A stretch of 64,000 nt of DNA from Verrucomicrobia bacterium LW23. Lineage in GTDB: Bacteria > Verrucomicrobiota > Verrucomicrobiia > Methylacidiphilales > UBA1321. Location: NCBI GenBank assembly GCA_003054695.1, contig QAZA01000009.1:124001-188000 (forward strand). The letters are read 5' to 3'. The first letter of the stretch is position 1. Every line of letters begins with the position of its first letter. The position numbers were made by a program, and so were the translations under genes. Under the pieces are notes generated by a model. It was not told where the DNA came from. It did no database searches and saw only the letters and a program-made list of their open reading frames with translations. Below, one piece after another: positions 9,327-32,688 of this stretch.

Positions 9327-9363
9327 CCGTAAATTTCGTGTGATTCGTGTGTTTCGTGGTTAA
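9327..9363. repeat. Intergenic TTCGTG repeat (NHETHESHE-type)
   Basis: The stretch AATTTCGTGTGATTCGTGTG plus TTTCGTGGTTAA is a 10-base periodic TTCGTG repeat. Read on the minus strand it spells the peptide NHETHESHE, an artefact often annotated as a short protein. From memory, this intergenic repeat is scattered in several bacterial phyla including Verrucomicrobiota. It is non-coding here. Confidence 0.6.
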
Positions 9364-9549
9364 AAGAGCCCTTTCGCTTCAGGTGCATGGCGGGTGGCCG
9401 CTGTGCACGGGGGGACGCATCCCACAAATTTTCGCTTTTCTTTTGGTTCAAGTGCTATACACCACACATCAGGATTGCCCGCATCACCGCCTTTAACTCC
9501 CCCTGAGGCACCCTGTCAGCGCGGGCTGCTCCTGACTTCTCACTTCTTC

Positions 9550-10467
9550 ATGAAACACGATCTCTCGCTCGAAAAGATTCGCATTGGTACGCTGGCCGGC
9601 AAGGGTAAGGATACCCCGGCTTACATCAAACAGATTCTCCCGCACGGGTTTGAAAGCTTCCAGATCAACTTTTGGCAAAAGCTGGATGGCGTTGACCTGC
9701 AGGACCTTGGCAAACGCACGCTCGATGTGCTGGCGGAGGATGGCTCCGGGGCCATCGTCTCGTCCATCGGCATGTTTGGCAACCCCATGGGCACCAAGGA
9801 GATCGACGCGGAGACGCTGGCGGGGCTGCGCACGGCCATCGATAGCGCATCGGCCTTTGGCACCAACCTGGTGTGCGGCTTTACCGGGCGCGTCGTCGGC
9901 GCTTCCATCCCGGATTCCATCCCACGGTTTAAGGAAGTGTGGAGCGACCTGGCCAAGCGCGCCGCGGACAAGGGCGTCAAGCTGGCGTTTGAGAATTGCG
10001 CAATGGGCGGCAACTGGAAATCCGGCGACTGGAACATTGCGCACAACCCCGCCGCATGGGAGCTGATGTTTGACGCCGTGCCCGACGCCAACATCGGCCT
10101 GGAGTGGGAGCCGTGCCACCAGATGTGCGAGCTGACCGACCCGATGCCGCAGCTGCGCGAGTGGCTGGGCAAAGGCAAGATCTTTCACGTGCACGGCAAG
10201 GACGCGACGATTCACTGGGACGTGGTGAAGAAGAACGGCATCGGCGGCAACAAGCCGTTTGTCTTCCACCGCACGCCCGGCTTTGGCGACTGCAACTGGA
10301 CGGATATTATCAGCGACCTGCGCATCGGCGGCTTCACCGGCTCGATCGATATTGAAGGCTGGCACGACCCGATTTACAAGGGCGACCTGGAGATGACCGG
10401 CCAGGTGCACGGGCTGAATTATCTGAAGCAGTGCCGCGGCGGTTACTTCGTGCCGAATCCCGTCTAG
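9550..10467 (+). CDS. Sugar phosphate isomerase/epimerase family protein (TIM barrel)
   Basis: The ATG at 9550 gives 305 residues; the frame is open further upstream into the repeat region, but that part is not gene-like. The pattern fits the AP endonuclease family 2 TIM barrel of IolE/IolI-type isomerases: LAFENCAMGG with the metal-ligand Glu near residue 140, then IGLEWEPCHQ (about 182-191), a KIFHVHGKDA strand with His residues (about 213-222) and a late SIDIEGWHDP Glu (about 264-273). Substrate cannot be told from sequence; these often act on inositol or keto-sugars. It stands alone, followed by a hairpin. Confidence 0.82.
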   Translation: MKHDLSLEKIRIGTLAGKGKDTPAYIKQILPHGFESFQINFWQKLDGVDLQDLGKRTLDVLAEDGSGAIVSSIGMFGNPMGTKEIDAETLAGLRTAIDSASAFGTNLVCGFTGRVVGASIPDSIPRFKEVWSDLAKRAADKGVKLAFENCAMGGNWKSGDWNIAHNPAAWELMFDAVPDANIGLEWEPCHQMCELTDPMPQLREWLGKGKIFHVHGKDATIHWDVVKKNGIGGNKPFVFHRTPGFGDCNWTDIISDLRIGGFTGSIDIEGWHDPIYKGDLEMTGQVHGLNYLKQCRGGYFVPNPV

Positions 10468-24945: not shown

Positions 24946-25320
24946 ATGAACGTACCTGATACCCTGAAATACGCCGAGAGCCACGAATGGGCCCTCATCG
25001 ACGGCGACACCGCCACCGTCGGCATCACCGACCACGCCCAGAGCGAACTCAGCGACGTCGTGCACGTCGAACTCCCCAAAGTCGGCGCCACCTTCACCGC
25101 CGGCGCCGTCGCCGCCACGGTGGACAGCGTCAAGGCCGCGTCGGATATCTACTCCCCCCTCAGCGGCACGGTTACGGAAGTCAACCCCGCCCTCTCGGAC
25201 CCGTCGCTTGTCAACACCGACGCCTTCGGTCAGGGCTGGATGTTCAAGCTCAAGCTCAGCGATCCCTCCGAAGCGGCAAAGCTCAAAAGCGCCGCGGAGT
25301 ACATCGCGCAGATCAGCTAG
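24946..25320 (+). CDS. gcvH: Glycine cleavage system H protein (lipoyl carrier)
   Basis: 124 residues, the usual size. [20 protein letters not shown] leads into the lipoyl hairpin [13 protein letters not shown], where Lys63 is the lipoylation site. It shuttles the methylamine group between GcvP, GcvT and the L protein. The stop codon's last base is the first base of a foldback element, so repeats abut the coding region directly. Confidence 0.94.
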
Positions 25321-25625
25321 AGGCTGTCGACATTTGGCCTCTTCCTTTATCCCCTGCTTAGAGGCTTGTATCCCCCTTAGAGCGAGACATTCTCCTCCAT
25401 ATTGCAGTACGGCTTCACAGATGTCTCGCTCTAAGGGGGATACAAGCCTCTAAGCAGGGGATAAAGGGGGAACGTAAGGAAGGTTGAACATCGTGGAAGC
25501 AACCCTCTTGGCGAAACTTTCCGCACTTGGCGATGTTATCTGAAGGTCCGTAGATCCAAGGCAGATAGCATCGCCAAGGACGGAAAGTTTCGCCAAGGGG
25601 ATGCAGCGGAAATGTCGACAGCCTC
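25320..25625. repeat. Foldback element with 16-base terminal inverted repeats
   Basis: GAGGCTGTCGACATTT at 25320-25335 is exactly repeated in inverse at 25610-25625. Inside are a perfect 47-bp stem (25344-25390 with 25421-25467, 30-base loop, containing CTGCTTAGAGGCTTGTATCC) and a second stem of about 36 bp (25507-25542 with about 25562-25597, three mismatches, containing CTTGGCGAAACTTTCCG). No gene is inside. The ends and size resemble a MITE-like element; no target duplication was identified. Confidence 0.85.
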
Positions 25626-25626
25626 C

Positions 25627-25969
25627 AGAGCATTTTCAGATAGCTTGTCGCGAATTTGCCAATCTCCGAGATCGGAGCCGAGCGTTTGCAAATACAGTCG
25701 ACCGGGCACAAGGCTCTGAGAACGGCGGAGCAGAGCGTTTGCAAATGGAGTTGTCACGAGCGAAGTGCTCCGAGAACGGCGGAGCCGTTCCATAACATAG
25801 CCCGGGGTTGCCCGCAGCATTCAGAATGCTGCGGGCAACCCCGGGCTATGTTATGGAACGGCTCCGCCGTTCTCGGAGCCTTGTGCTCGGTCGACTGTAT
25901 TTGCGAACGCTCTGCTCCGCCGTGCTCGGAGCTTGGCGAGCTCGCGACACGCTATCTGGAAACCGCTCT
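25627..25969. repeat. Foldback element around a perfect 113-base palindrome
   Basis: The core is perfectly palindromic: 56-base arms 25767-25822 and 25824-25879 with one unpaired central base. Outside it, partly diverged inverse copies continue to about 25627 and 25969 (AGATAGC-TGTCGCGA segments on both ends), and a roughly 52-base unit beginning GAGCGTTTGCAAAT occurs twice on the left in direct order and once on the right inverted. It abuts the previous foldback. No gene is supported between 25970 and 26223. Confidence 0.85.
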
Positions 25970-26223: not shown

Positions 26224-29200
26224 ATGACCTCTATGAAAAAGAACGGTGTCGGGCACAAGGAGGCTGCGGTGGCGGCCCCGGCAAAGGCAAAGCGGAATGG
26301 TTCGGCAGGAAAGACGGGAGTGCCTGCGCGAGGCACGGCTGCGGCGGCCGTCGACGACGACTTTGATCAGGTGCAGCTTCTTGAGGCGCTGACGGCGCTG
26401 AAGAAGGGCGACTTTACGGCGCGGCTTCCGCTGAACTGGGATGGCACGGCCGGAAAGATTGCCGACGCGTTTAATGAGGTGATGGAGCGCAACCAGCGCA
26501 TGTCCGCCGAGTTGGCGCGCATGAGCCGGGTTGTTGGTAAGGAGGGCCGCATTTCCCAGCGCGCCTCCATCGGCGAGGTTACGGGTGCGTGGGCGGACTC
26601 GATCGACTCCGTAAACGCGCTGGTGAGCGACCTGGTGCACCCTACCAGCGAAACGGCGCGCGTGATTGGCGCCGTGGCGAAGGGCGATCTGACCCAGACC
26701 ATGGCGCTGGAGATTGAAGGGCGCGAGCTGAAGGGCGAATTCCTCCGCACCGCCAAGACGGTGAATACGATGGTGAACCAGCTCAGCTCCTTCGCCTCGG
26801 AGGTGACGCGCGTGGCGCGCGAGGTGGGCACGGAGGGTAAGCTGGGCGGACAGGCCAAGGTGAAGGGCGTGGCGGGTACGTGGAAGGATCTCACCGACTC
26901 GGTCAACTCCATGGCCGGCAACCTTACGGCGCAGGTGCGTAACATTGCGGCGGTAACCACGGCGGTGGCCAAGGGCGATCTCTCCAAGAAGATTACCGTG
27001 GACGTGAAGGGGGAAATCCAGGAGCTGAAGAACACGATCAACACGATGGTAGACCAGCTCCGCTCGTTCGCGTCGGAGGTAACGCGTGTGGCGCGCGAGG
27101 TGGGCACGGAAGGCAAACTGGGCGGCCAGGCCGACGTGCGCGGCGTTGCGGGCACGTGGAAGGATCTGACCGATAACGTGAACTCCATGGCGCGCAACCT
27201 TACGGGGCAGGTGCGTAATATCGCCGCGGTAACCACGGCGGTGGCGAACGGGGATCTCTCCAAGAAGATTACCGTGAACGTGAAGGGCGAGATTCTGGAG
27301 CTGAAGAATACCATCAACACGATGGTGGATCAGCTCAGCTCCTTCGCGTCGGAGGTAACGCGCGTGGCGCGCGAGGTGGGCACGGAGGGCAAGCTGGGCG
27401 GTCAGGCGGACGTGAAGGGTGTGGCGGGTACGTGGAAGGATCTTACCGATTCGGTGAACTCCATGGCGGGCAATCTTACCGCGCAAGTGCGTAACATTGC
27501 GGATGTGACGACGGCGGTGGCCAACGGCAATCTCTCCAAGAAGATTACCGTGGACGTGCGCGGGGAGATTCTGGAGCTGAAGGACACGATCAACACGATG
27601 GTGGATCAGCTCCGCTCGTTCGCGTCGGAGGTAACGCGTGTGGCGCGCGAGGTGGGCACCGAGGGCAAGCTGGGCGGCCAGGCCGATGTGCGAGGCGTTG
27701 CCGGCACATGGAAGGATCTGACCGACAACGTGAACCTGATGGCGAGCAACCTTACCGCCCAGGTGCGTAACATTGCGACGGTGACGACGGCCATCGCCAA
27801 CGGCGATCTGTCCAAGAAGATCACCGTGGACGTTAAGGGCGAGATCCTGTCGATGAAAGACACGATCAACACGCTCGTCGATCAGCTCTCAAGCTTCGCC
27901 TCGGAGGTAACGCGCGTGGCGCGCGAGGTGGGCACCGAGGGCAAGCTGGGCGGCCAGGCCGAGGTGCGTGGCGTGGCGGGTACGTGGAAGGATCTCACCG
28001 ACTCGGTGAACTCCATGGCCGGCAATCTTACCTCGCAGGTGCGTAACATTGCGGACGTAACGACGGCGGTTGCCAACGGCAACCTCAGCAAGAAGATTAC
28101 CGTGGACGTGCGCGGAGAAATTGCGGAGCTGAAGGATACGATCAACACGATGGTCGACCAGCTCAACTCCTTCGCCTCGGAAGTAACCCGTGTGGCGCGC
28201 GAAGTCGGCACGGAAGGCAAGCTGGGCGGCCAGGCGGAAGTGCGAGGCGTTGGCGGAACCTGGAAGGACCTCACCGACTCGGTGAACTCCATGGCCGGCA
28301 ACCTTACCTCGCAGGTGCGCAACATTGCGGATGTAACGACGGCGGTGGCCAACGGCAATCTGTCGAAGAAGATCACCGTGGACGTGCGCGGGGAGATTGC
28401 GGAGCTGAAGGATACGATCAACACCATGGTGGATCAGCTCAACTCCTTCGCGTCGGAGGTAACGCGTGTGGCGCGCGAGGTGGGCACGGAAGGCAAGCTG
28501 GGCGGCCAGGCCGAGGTGCGAGGCGTCGGCGGTACGTGGAAGGACCTCACCGATAACGTGAACTTTATGGCCGGTAACCTCACCTCGCAGGTACGTAACA
28601 TCGCGGCGGTTACCACAGCGGTGGCCAAGGGCGATCTTTCCAAGAAGATCACCGTGGACGTTAAAGGCGAGATTCTGGAGCTGAAGAATACCATCAACAC
28701 GATGGTCGACCAGCTCTCCTCCTTCGCCGCCGAGGTAACGCGTGTGGCGCGCGAGGTGGGCACGGAAGGCAAGCTGGGAGGCCAGGCCGACGTGCGCGGC
28801 GTGGCGGGTACGTGGAAGGATCTGACCGATTCGGTGAACTCCATGGCCGGCAATCTTACCTCGCAGGTGCGTAACATTGCGGACGTGACGACGGCGGTGG
28901 CCAACGGCAATCTGTCCAAGAAGATCACCGTGGACGTGAAGGGGGAAATTCTGGAGCTGAAGAACACCATCAACACGATGGTCGACCAGCTCAACTCCTT
29001 CGCCTCGGAGGTAACGCGCGTGGCGCGCGAGGTGGGCACGGAGGGCAAGCTGGGTGGTCAGGCCGACGTGCGCGGCGTGGCCGGCACGTGGAAGGACCTT
29101 ACCGATAACGTGAACTTTATGGCCGGTAACCTGACCTCGCAGGTGCGCAACATCGCGGCGGTAACCACAGCTGTGGCGAGGGGCGATCTCTCCAAGAAGA

Positions 29201-32200
29201 TCACCGTGGACGTGAAGGGCGAGATCCTGGAGCTGAAGAACACCATCAACACCATGGTGGATCAGCTCAGCTCCTTCGCGGCGGAGGTAACACGTGTTGC
29301 CCGCGAGGTGGGCACGGAAGGCAAGCTGGGTGGCCAGGCCGAGGTAACCGGCGTGGCCGGCACGTGGAAGGACCTAACCGATAACGTGAATCTCATGGCC
29401 GGCAACCTCACCGACCAGGTGCGCGGTATCGCGCTGGTCGTAACGGCTGTGGCCAACGGTAACCTGGCGCGAAAACTGACGGTGGAAGCCAAAGGCGAAA
29501 TCGCCGCGCTGGCCGAGACGATTAACTCGATGACCAACACGCTCGCCACCTTCGCGGACCAGGTTACCACCGTCGCACGCGAGGTGGGTGTCGAGGGCAA
29601 GCTGGGCGGTCAGGCCAGCGTGCCGGGCGCCGCCGGTACGTGGAAGGATCTGACCGATAACGTCAACCAGCTCGCCGCCAACCTTACCACGCAGGTGCGC
29701 GCTATTGCGGAAGTAGCGACGGCCGTGACGAAAGGCGATCTCACGCAGTCCATCACCGTGGAGGCGCTGGGCGAGGTGGCCGCGCTCAAGGACAACATCA
29801 ACGAGATGATCCGCAACCTCAAGGACACCACGCTGAAGAACTCCGAGCAGGACTGGCTGAAGACCAACCTCGCCAAGTTCTCCCGCATGCTCCAGGGCCA
29901 GAAGGATCTGCTCACCGTCGGCAAGCTCATCCTTTCGGAGCTCGCGCCCGTCGTCAGCGCGCAGCAGGCCGTCTTCTACACCGTGGATACCACCGGCGGC
30001 ACCCCCGGCAAGGAGGACGCCCAGCCCTTTCTGCGCCTGCTGGCCAGCTACGCCTACCGCAGCGGCCGCAAAAACACCGGCAACGCCTTTAAGCTGGGCG
30101 AGGGCCTGGTGGGCCAGTGCGCGGTGGAGAAGGAGAAGATTCTCGTCAGCAATGTGCCCAAGAACTACCTCACCATCGGCTCCGGCCTTGGCACCGCGAG
30201 CCCGGCCAACATCCTGGTGCTGCCGGTTATCTTCGAGGGCCAGGTGAAAGGCGTGATGGAGCTCGCCTCCTTCGAGCACTTCTCCCCTACGCACCACGCG
30301 TTCCTCGATCAGCTGACCGAGTCGATCGGCATCGTGTTCAACACCATCGAGGCCAACACCCGCACCGAGGACCTGCTCAAGCAGTCCCAGTCCCTGGCCA
30401 AGGAGCTGCAAAGCCAGCAGCTCGAGCTCCAGGCCACCAACCAGCAGCTCGGCGAAAAAGCCAAGCTGCTGGCCGACCAGAACGTGGAGGTGGAGCGCAA
30501 GAACGCCGAAGTGGAGCAGGCCCGCCAGGCGCTGGAAGAAAAAGCGCGGCAGCTGGCGCTGACCTCCAAGTACAAGTCGGAGTTCCTGGCCAACATGTCG
30601 CACGAGCTTCGCACGCCGCTCAACTCGCTGCTGATCCTCTCCGACGACCTCTCGCGCAACCGCGATCAGAATCTGACCGCACGGCAGGTGGAGTTCGCGA
30701 AGACCATCCACGCCGCCGGCAACGATCTGCTCGCGCTCATCAATGACATTCTGGACCTCAGTAAGATCGAGTCCGGAACCGTGATGGTGGACGTGGGCGA
30801 GGTAACGCTGCGCGAGCTGCAGGACTACGTGGAGCGCGGCTTCCGCCACTTTGCGGACAGCAAAAAGCTCGATTTCGAGGTGTCGCGCGCGGTCAACCTG
30901 CCCCGCACGATGCAAACGGACGCCAAGCGCCTGCAGCAGATCCTCAAGAATCTGCTCTCCAACGCGTTCAAGTTCACCGAAAAAGGCCGCGTCACCTTCA
31001 CCATCGACAGCGCGACGGAGGGCTGGAACCCCGAGAACGAGACGCTCAGCCGCGCCAAATCAGTTCTCGCCTTCAGCGTCAGCGATACGGGCATTGGCAT
31101 CTCGCCGGACAAACAGAACATCATCTTCGAGGCCTTCCAGCAGGCGGACGGCTCCACGTCGCGCAAGTACGGCGGCACCGGCCTCGGCCTGGCCATCTCT
31201 CGCGAGATTACCCGCCTGCTCGGCGGCGAGATTCGCCTCTCCAGCACGCCGGGCGAGGGGAGCACCTTCACCCTCTACCTGCCGCAAAACTTTGTACCCG
31301 TCAAACCGGCCAAGCGCCAGGCGCTCCTCAGCCCGCCGCCGCCCGCCGCCCCGGCCCCGGCCGTTGCCGTGCCCGAGGCGGAGTCGGAACCGGACCCCGA
31401 GTTCAGCGGCCACACCATCGTCCTGCCCGATCCGGAGCCCGAGCCCGAGCCGCCCGCGCCCATGCGCGCCGAGGACGACATGGACGACATCGGCCCGGAC
31501 GACAAAGTGGTGCTTATTGTGGAGAACGACATCGCCTTTGCGCAGCTGCTGCTGGAGATGGCGCATGAGTCCGGCTTCAAAGCCATCATCTCCCCGCGCG
31601 GTGCGGATGGCCTCCTTATCGCCGCCGAGCGCAACATCTCCGCCATCACGCTGGACATCAACCTGCACGATATGGACGGCTGGCGCGTCATGGCCCGGCT
31701 GAAGGACGACTTCCGCACGCGCCACATCCCCGTCTACCTCATCACCACGGAGGAGGCGCAGATGCGGGGCTTCCGCCAGGGCGCCGTGGGCGTGCTGAGC
31801 AAGCCGCTTAAATCCCGCGAGGAACTGCGCAAAGTGTTTGCCCGCCTGCGGACCATCACCGCCCAGGGCATCCGCCACCGCCTGCTTATTGCCAGCAACG
31901 AGGGCGGCCTGCGCCACCACGTTACCCAGTGGATGGGCGACCAGGATGTGGAGCTGCTGGAGGCCGCCAGCGGCAAGGAGGTTCTCCGCCTGCTGAAGGA
32001 TCCCACCGCCGAGCCGGTCAGCGCCGTCATTATGTCGCTGGACCTGGAGGACATGACCGGCCTGGACCTGGCTGAGGAGGTGAAGAAAGAAACCTGCCTG
32101 GAGCACCTGCCGTTCATCGCCTACGTGCCCCGCAACCTCACCAAAAAGGACGACGTGCACCTCAAACGCCTGTGCCAGTCCATGAACCTGAAAGAAGTGC

Positions 32201-32688
32201 ACAGCGAGGAGCGCCTGCTGGACGAGTGCGCCCTGATTCTGCACCAGGATGTGCGCGCCATGCCCGACGCGCGCCGCGAAGCCATCGAGCGCCTCTACCA
32301 GGCCGAGACGGTATTGCGCGACAAAAAGATCCTCATCGTCGACGACGACATCCGCAACATCTTTGCCATGACAAGCCTGCTGGAGCGCTACCAGATGGAG
32401 ATTTTCTCCGCCGAAACCGGCAAGATCGCCCTGGAGCTGCTGCAAGCCACGCCTGACATCGAGGCGGTGCTCATGGACATCATGATGCCCGACATGGACG
32501 GCTACGACACCATGCGCGCCATCCGCAAGTTCCAGCGCTTCCGCACCCTGCCGATGATTGCCGTAACCGCCAAGGCAATGAAGGGCGACCGCGAAAAGTG
32601 TATCGAGGCCGGCGCTTCGGATTATATTGCCAAACCGGTCGACAGCGCCGAACTTCTCTCTATGCTGAGAATCTGGCTTCACCGCTGA
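26224..32688 (+). CDS. Soluble poly-HAMP hybrid histidine kinase, Nik1-like, with GAF and three receivers
   Basis: 2154 residues without a membrane helix. Residues about 50-1215 are HAMP-type 92-residue units: one divergent, about ten near-identical, then one and a half diverging. Each carries [13 protein letters not shown] and [11 protein letters not shown]. Next come a GAF domain (about 1228-1376), a coiled coil, HisKA with His1460, HATPase (GTGLGLAIS), receiver 1 with Asp1811, receiver 2 with Ser1938 at the phosphorylation site, and receiver 3 with Asp2085. The HAMP array closely resembles fungal group III (Nik1/Os-1) kinases that sense osmotic stress. It probably heads an operon with the two following genes. 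Confidence 0.92.
26680..29730 (+). repeat. 276-base tandem repeats encoding HAMP units
   Basis: About ten consecutive in-frame 276-base units, strongly conserved at DNA level, for example GCGCGCGAGGTGGGCACGGA recurring throughout. Middle units are near-identical; units at both ends diverge. The period exactly equals 92 codons, so copy number can change without frameshift. Confidence 0.92.

Follow-up and report, generated by a model that had tools for sequence, protein, structure and literature searches.

Introduction

Engineered long palindromes in Escherichia coli are cleaved by SbcCD (PMC4245961, PMC3315005); Rec+ SbcCD+ cells of this species tolerate a 246-bp interrupted palindrome without noticeable problem, whereas a 460-bp perfect one is lethal (PMC4245961). 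The locus described here likewise presents a perfect palindrome in a chromosome coding for SbcD and an SbcC-like protein; unlike the engineered cases, however, it is natural, probably derived from a mobile element and, at 113 bp, well below the lethal 460 bp. Among mobile elements the closest described relatives are the IS5-type MITEs, such as MITEPsy1 of Pseudomonas syringae, which inserts at CTAG/YTAA and has ISPsy2 as its parent (PMC3189936). The two adjacent elements that we name P and M resemble these in being short, gene-less and dispersed, with terminal inverted repeats and a YTAR-like target, and M has the ends of an IS5-family insertion sequence of its own genome. P differs in being a long modular foldback of up to ~450 bp, with ends unlike those of M and a parent insertion sequence that was not found. 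REP/BIME elements and REPINs share with P the GC-rich hairpin units shuffled in direct and inverted orientation, but P is not linked here to Y1 transposase loci and has long terminal repeats with TA flanks. Finally, template switching that perfects stems has been described (PMC8794818), and the literature on quasipalindrome correction (PMC7202029, PMC8794818) predicts that switching across a foldback leaves the inner arms identical and the outer arms diverged. This is the pattern of the P copy at the present locus; our inference of such correction draws on this single copy and a few related ones.

Results

The palindrome and its locus

The window, i.e., the whole 64-kb stretch of DNA that was analyzed, lies on a contig (C9) of a 6.6-Mb genome assembled in 56 contigs. 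The preliminary description had pointed to a perfect 113-base palindrome with 56 pairs around a single base, and re-verification on the letters bore this out: positions 25767-25879 are exactly self-complementary, and a scan of the window for perfect palindromes (arms ≥12 nt, loop 0-1) recovered this one alone. By our own arithmetic, the chance expectation of perfect 56-nt arms is 4^-56 × 6.6 Mb, or ~1e-27, and the palindrome is therefore not a chance occurrence. Complementarity continues outward past it at 94% over 66 nt, and beyond it lie unit pairs of 59 and 39 nt together with direct repeats at 53-54-nt spacing in each arm. The earlier depiction of a larger, diverged foldback in which direct and inverted units are shuffled is thus right. 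The features of the region are:

24946-25320, + strand: gcvH, the left neighbor gene (annotation of the flanks)
25320-25625, + strand: M element, a ~306-bp MITE with IS5-type ends GAGGCTGTCGACATTT and two internal hairpins (family ends; IS5-family match)
25344-25467, no strand: hairpin 1 of M, 47-nt perfect arms and a 30-nt loop (foldback scan, copy comparison)
25504-25600, no strand: hairpin 2 of M, 39-nt arms, 90% complementary (foldback scan, copy comparison)
25628-25968, no strand: P element, a MITE-like foldback copy, probably centre-deleted (dispersed matches in its own genome; ends at the terminal-repeat motif)
25628-25654, + strand: left terminal inverted repeat of P, GAGCATTTTC-AGATAGCTTGTCGCGA (sequence, family ends)
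25673-25751, + strand: left arm, a tandem unit of ~53-nt spacing with direct repeats D5 and D7, the 'shuffled units' (repeat comparison)
25767-25879, no strand: perfect palindrome, 56-nt arms around a central A at 25823 (sequence and self-complementarity)
25861-25932, - strand: right arm, the matching unit of 53-nt spacing, D8 (repeat comparison)
25942-25968, - strand: right terminal inverted repeat of P, GAGCGGTTTCCAGATAGCGTGTCGCGA (family ends)
26224-32688, + strand: hybrid histidine kinase, the right neighbor gene, with receiver domains and a region of multiple HAMP repeats (domain matches)

The kinase has 2154 aa, with eleven tandem HAMP matches (276-bp DNA repeats) and three receiver-domain matches. 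A scan of other genomes with gcvH returned distant relatives only (best 63-69% identity), too remote to show an empty site.

A lineage-specific family of foldback elements

Queried with 25632-25965, the genome of the window returned over 100 match segments, mostly 77-93% identical and spread over tens of places, and the 77-nt core of P alone matched 45 segments. By contrast, P was unmatched in the 39 relatives searched; its end motif occurs in this genome (17 times forward, 19 reverse) and is absent from the 387 others of the 388 phylum genomes searched, as well as from viral contigs. The element likewise had no match in plasmid or phage collections, and a phage, plasmid or viral source was rejected for want of such matches; a reading of P as a structured RNA was set aside too, as no Rfam family matched it. 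The terminal inverted repeats of P are GAGCRTTTTCCAGATAGCTTGTCGCG, and the family ends mostly read YTA followed by GAGCRTTTTCCAGATAGCTTGTCGCG. Genome-wide, 45 ends fall within two mismatches of GAGCNTTTTCCAGATAGC vs none for a reversed-pattern control, so that the ends are not due to chance. The flanking triplet is YTA at 21 of 44 P ends and at 37 of 51 M ends, the rest including decayed forms (e.g., TCA or CTG); the target-site evidence is accordingly weaker for P than for M. As for target-site duplication in the P family, L039, L040 and L042 are flanked by TA on either side, and many single ends have YTA. Complete copies span from ~156 bp (the short form: L035, L039, L042) to 452 bp (L040); they are multi-copy, short and non-coding, and lack a transposase gene. 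Copies with one detectable arm are common. To judge from this anatomy (gene-less, terminal inverted repeats, TA flanks, dispersed copies), P appears to have the features of a MITE.

The search for an autonomous element sharing the ends of P came up empty, also at the PF13358 and PF01609 loci. IS630/mariner was rejected as the driver, the PF13358 loci carrying other terminal repeats. No P end within four mismatches lies beside the PF01609 loci, and it is the YTA preference alone that agrees with the IS5 family. P would be mobile by means of a transposase acting in trans, which may, by analogy with M, be IS5-like.

In the window copy, the left terminal repeat is one base short of the family motif and is preceded by CA (25626-25627), probably a decayed TA; the right flank has TGA instead of YTA. 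The clean TA has been lost on both sides (decayed to CA/TCA).

The neighboring M element

The foldbacks at 25344-25467 and 25504-25600 belong to M, which lies directly upstream of P and is a separate element, listed at some 40 places and with 115 ends within one mismatch genome-wide. Its ends, TAGAGGCTGTCGACATT, are identical to those of a multi-copy IS5-family insertion sequence of the same genome: at L230, the beginning and the end of a transposase reading frame, separated by a gap of Ns, lie within a pair of M-type ends, and NCBIfam IS5_3 matches the partner at L218. Copies of this insertion sequence (L230, L218, L268-L272) have the ends TAGAGGCTGTCGACATTC, and several contigs begin within them; the first bases of five (C11, C13, C22, C23 and C39) place their starts inside such an M/IS5-end copy. 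The target TA of M (25318-25319) lies in the stop codon of gcvH, and the first base of M (25320) completes TAG, so that the stop is kept.

At L039 and L042 a single TA separates P from M, and the window has nearly the same junction (CA); judging by these junctions, TA-targeting elements appear to have been inserted side by side more than once. A third foldback family, with ends GACCAATTATCGGAATAAACCGGTACATTGG, occurs at L048, L079, L087 and L265 near 9358-9570, and C9 begins inside one of its copies. Further, L039, L040, L046, L064, L073 and L273 (contig ends) display a common ~60-bp terminus ending in CTCAGGACAYTA beside P or M ends, which is probably the end of another TA-targeting insertion sequence.

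The missing centre and the identity of the arms

Full-length P copies have ~200 nt between imperfect arms. In five of these (L034, L038, L040, L043, L048) the arms run ...GCATTC, TGATGCGAGG...CCTCGCATC, AGAATGC...; with small variations, the same copies read ...CCCGSAGCATTC TGATGCGAGGACTACCCCGGG...(~200 nt)...CCCGGGGTAGTCCTCGCATC AGAATGCTSCGGG.... The window copy lacks exactly the middle that runs from TGATGCGAGG to CCTCGCATC, and GCATTC is joined directly to AGAATGC. Its arms show 0 mismatches in 56 positions vs 2-9 in seven other P copies. At the same time, its outer arms and two terminal repeats differ from each other and the inner tract alone is identical, which indicates that two old arms existed. 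Comparing arms within copies to arms swapped between copies, we found the former to be more alike (p=0.012, a weak signal from only 8 copies; p=0.026, likewise weak, from the 7 copies other than that in the window). Hairpin 1 of M gave a similarly weak signal (p=0.037), whereas hairpin 2, as control, gave the opposite of P (p=1.0); its arms keep fixed left/right differences, and we discarded it as evidence for arm homogenization.

We place a probability of roughly 0.7 on the reading that the palindrome is a real feature of the assembly and the core of a centre-deleted copy of the lineage-specific MITE family P, with inner arms corrected and the whole passively carried. Under this reading P, a non-autonomous TA-targeting miniature transposon built as a long foldback (~27-bp terminal inverted repeats, modular arms and a ~200-nt hairpin-rich centre), would have inserted beside M in the intergenic region between gcvH and the histidine kinase gene, its copies being moved by a transposase supplied in trans (putatively IS5-like, by analogy with M). 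The central segment of this copy would then have been deleted between GCATTC and AGAATGC. Quasipalindrome correction, in which replication switches templates across the foldback, would most likely have rendered the inner 56 nt of the two arms identical and left the outer arms diverged. Centre deletion plus such correction is the most likely cause of the palindrome, the arm-likeness statistics lending it weak support, and the palindrome would have no function of its own.

Discussion

The foremost rival is that the locus in truth holds a P foldback of the ordinary, imperfect kind, whose arms and centre the assembler collapsed to one consensus. Many contigs end in these repeats, the hairpins evidently breaking assembly, and positions 1-149508 of C9 are, in the samples compared (~52 kb), the reverse complement of C10:1-149508 save for three bases. 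All three (25401, 25430 and 25447) lie in hairpin 1 of M, where the arms are perfect on C9 but not on C10; thus, either C9 or C10 is wrong at this hairpin or the segment is really duplicated. C10 repeats the left neighborhood of the palindrome (8,000 bp, with 3 differences, all in the adjacent hairpin) and does not cover the palindrome itself. Hairpin 1 is perfect in 2 of 3 copies on C9 vs 0 of 9 on other contigs. Since C10 shows the neighboring hairpin with three different bases, the exact perfection of the arms could be assembler-made. However, the 13-nt centre GCATTCAGAATGC joins sequences that are non-adjacent in every full-length copy examined, and collapse of the arms alone would not make it. 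Moreover, the outer arms of the window copy were kept distinct, and the third M hairpin on C9 (L076) is imperfect. On balance, we hold an artefact to be unlikely. The shared 149.5-kb segment, which includes window positions 1-25508, has hairpin elements at both ends on C9 and C10; it probably reflects redundant contigs and possibly a real duplication.

Somewhat less likely still is an origin in which one template-switch event recently duplicated a one-arm copy in inverted orientation, as opposed to an existing second arm being corrected. The frequency of one-arm copies and the one-base centre, which fits strand switching, are in its favor; but both outer ends of the window copy have separate, differently decayed terminal repeats, which points to two old arms.

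The preferred reading, a centre-deleted P copy with corrected inner arms, also bears on the view that, given the instability of such palindromes under SbcCD, this one implies recent arrival or special tolerance. A check of the sbcCD genes showed that SbcD, above the curated cut-off, and an SbcC/Rad50-like protein are both encoded. The latter has 1312 aa and contains both SbcC/Rad50 halves, N-terminal and C-terminal (AAA_23 and SbcC_Walker_B); it falls below the TIGR00618 cut-off, a threshold that only 1 of 14 control genomes passes. As E. coli with SbcCD tolerates a longer interrupted palindrome, and 113 bp is far below the lethal length, no special tolerance is needed, and with the family present in tens of copies the proposed implication does not follow. 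What stands of recency is that the perfection looks young relative to the imperfect arms of other copies; local correction of the arms within an old element accounts for this apparent youth better than arrival does. A bolder extension, that P arms are continually re-perfected by template switching, which renews long palindromes despite SbcCD, and that the hairpins bound large duplications (the 149.5-kb segment of C9 and C10 then being real), strikes us as very doubtful.

No more plausible is a functional cis element (a bidirectional terminator, an attenuator or a protein-binding cruciform) between gcvH and the kinase gene. The very stable stem between two same-strand genes appears terminator-like in a simple scan, but a real T tract is missing after it, P is scattered over unrelated loci, the searches of related genomes did not recover it, and the Rfam families offered no match. 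Least credible of all is a REP/BIME-like element mobilized by a RAYT (Y1) transposase: a small GC-rich hairpin unit, GCTCCGCCGTTCTCGGAGC, does recur in shuffled order, and the genome has five Y1_Tnp matches, yet the unit is absent (at up to four mismatches) from all Y1_Tnp loci and the P copies, unlike REP, are bounded by long terminal inverted repeats flanked by TA, so that we rejected a RAYT/REP origin.

A striking palindrome thereby becomes recognizable as what is probably a single decayed copy of a lineage-specific miniature transposon family; it looks like an ordinary genome parasite, the arms of which were probably made identical by a copying error. If its perfection is confirmed, the P family, whose tens of copies are at different stages, would constitute a natural data set on the rate of foldback-arm homogenization in a host with SbcD and an SbcC-like protein.
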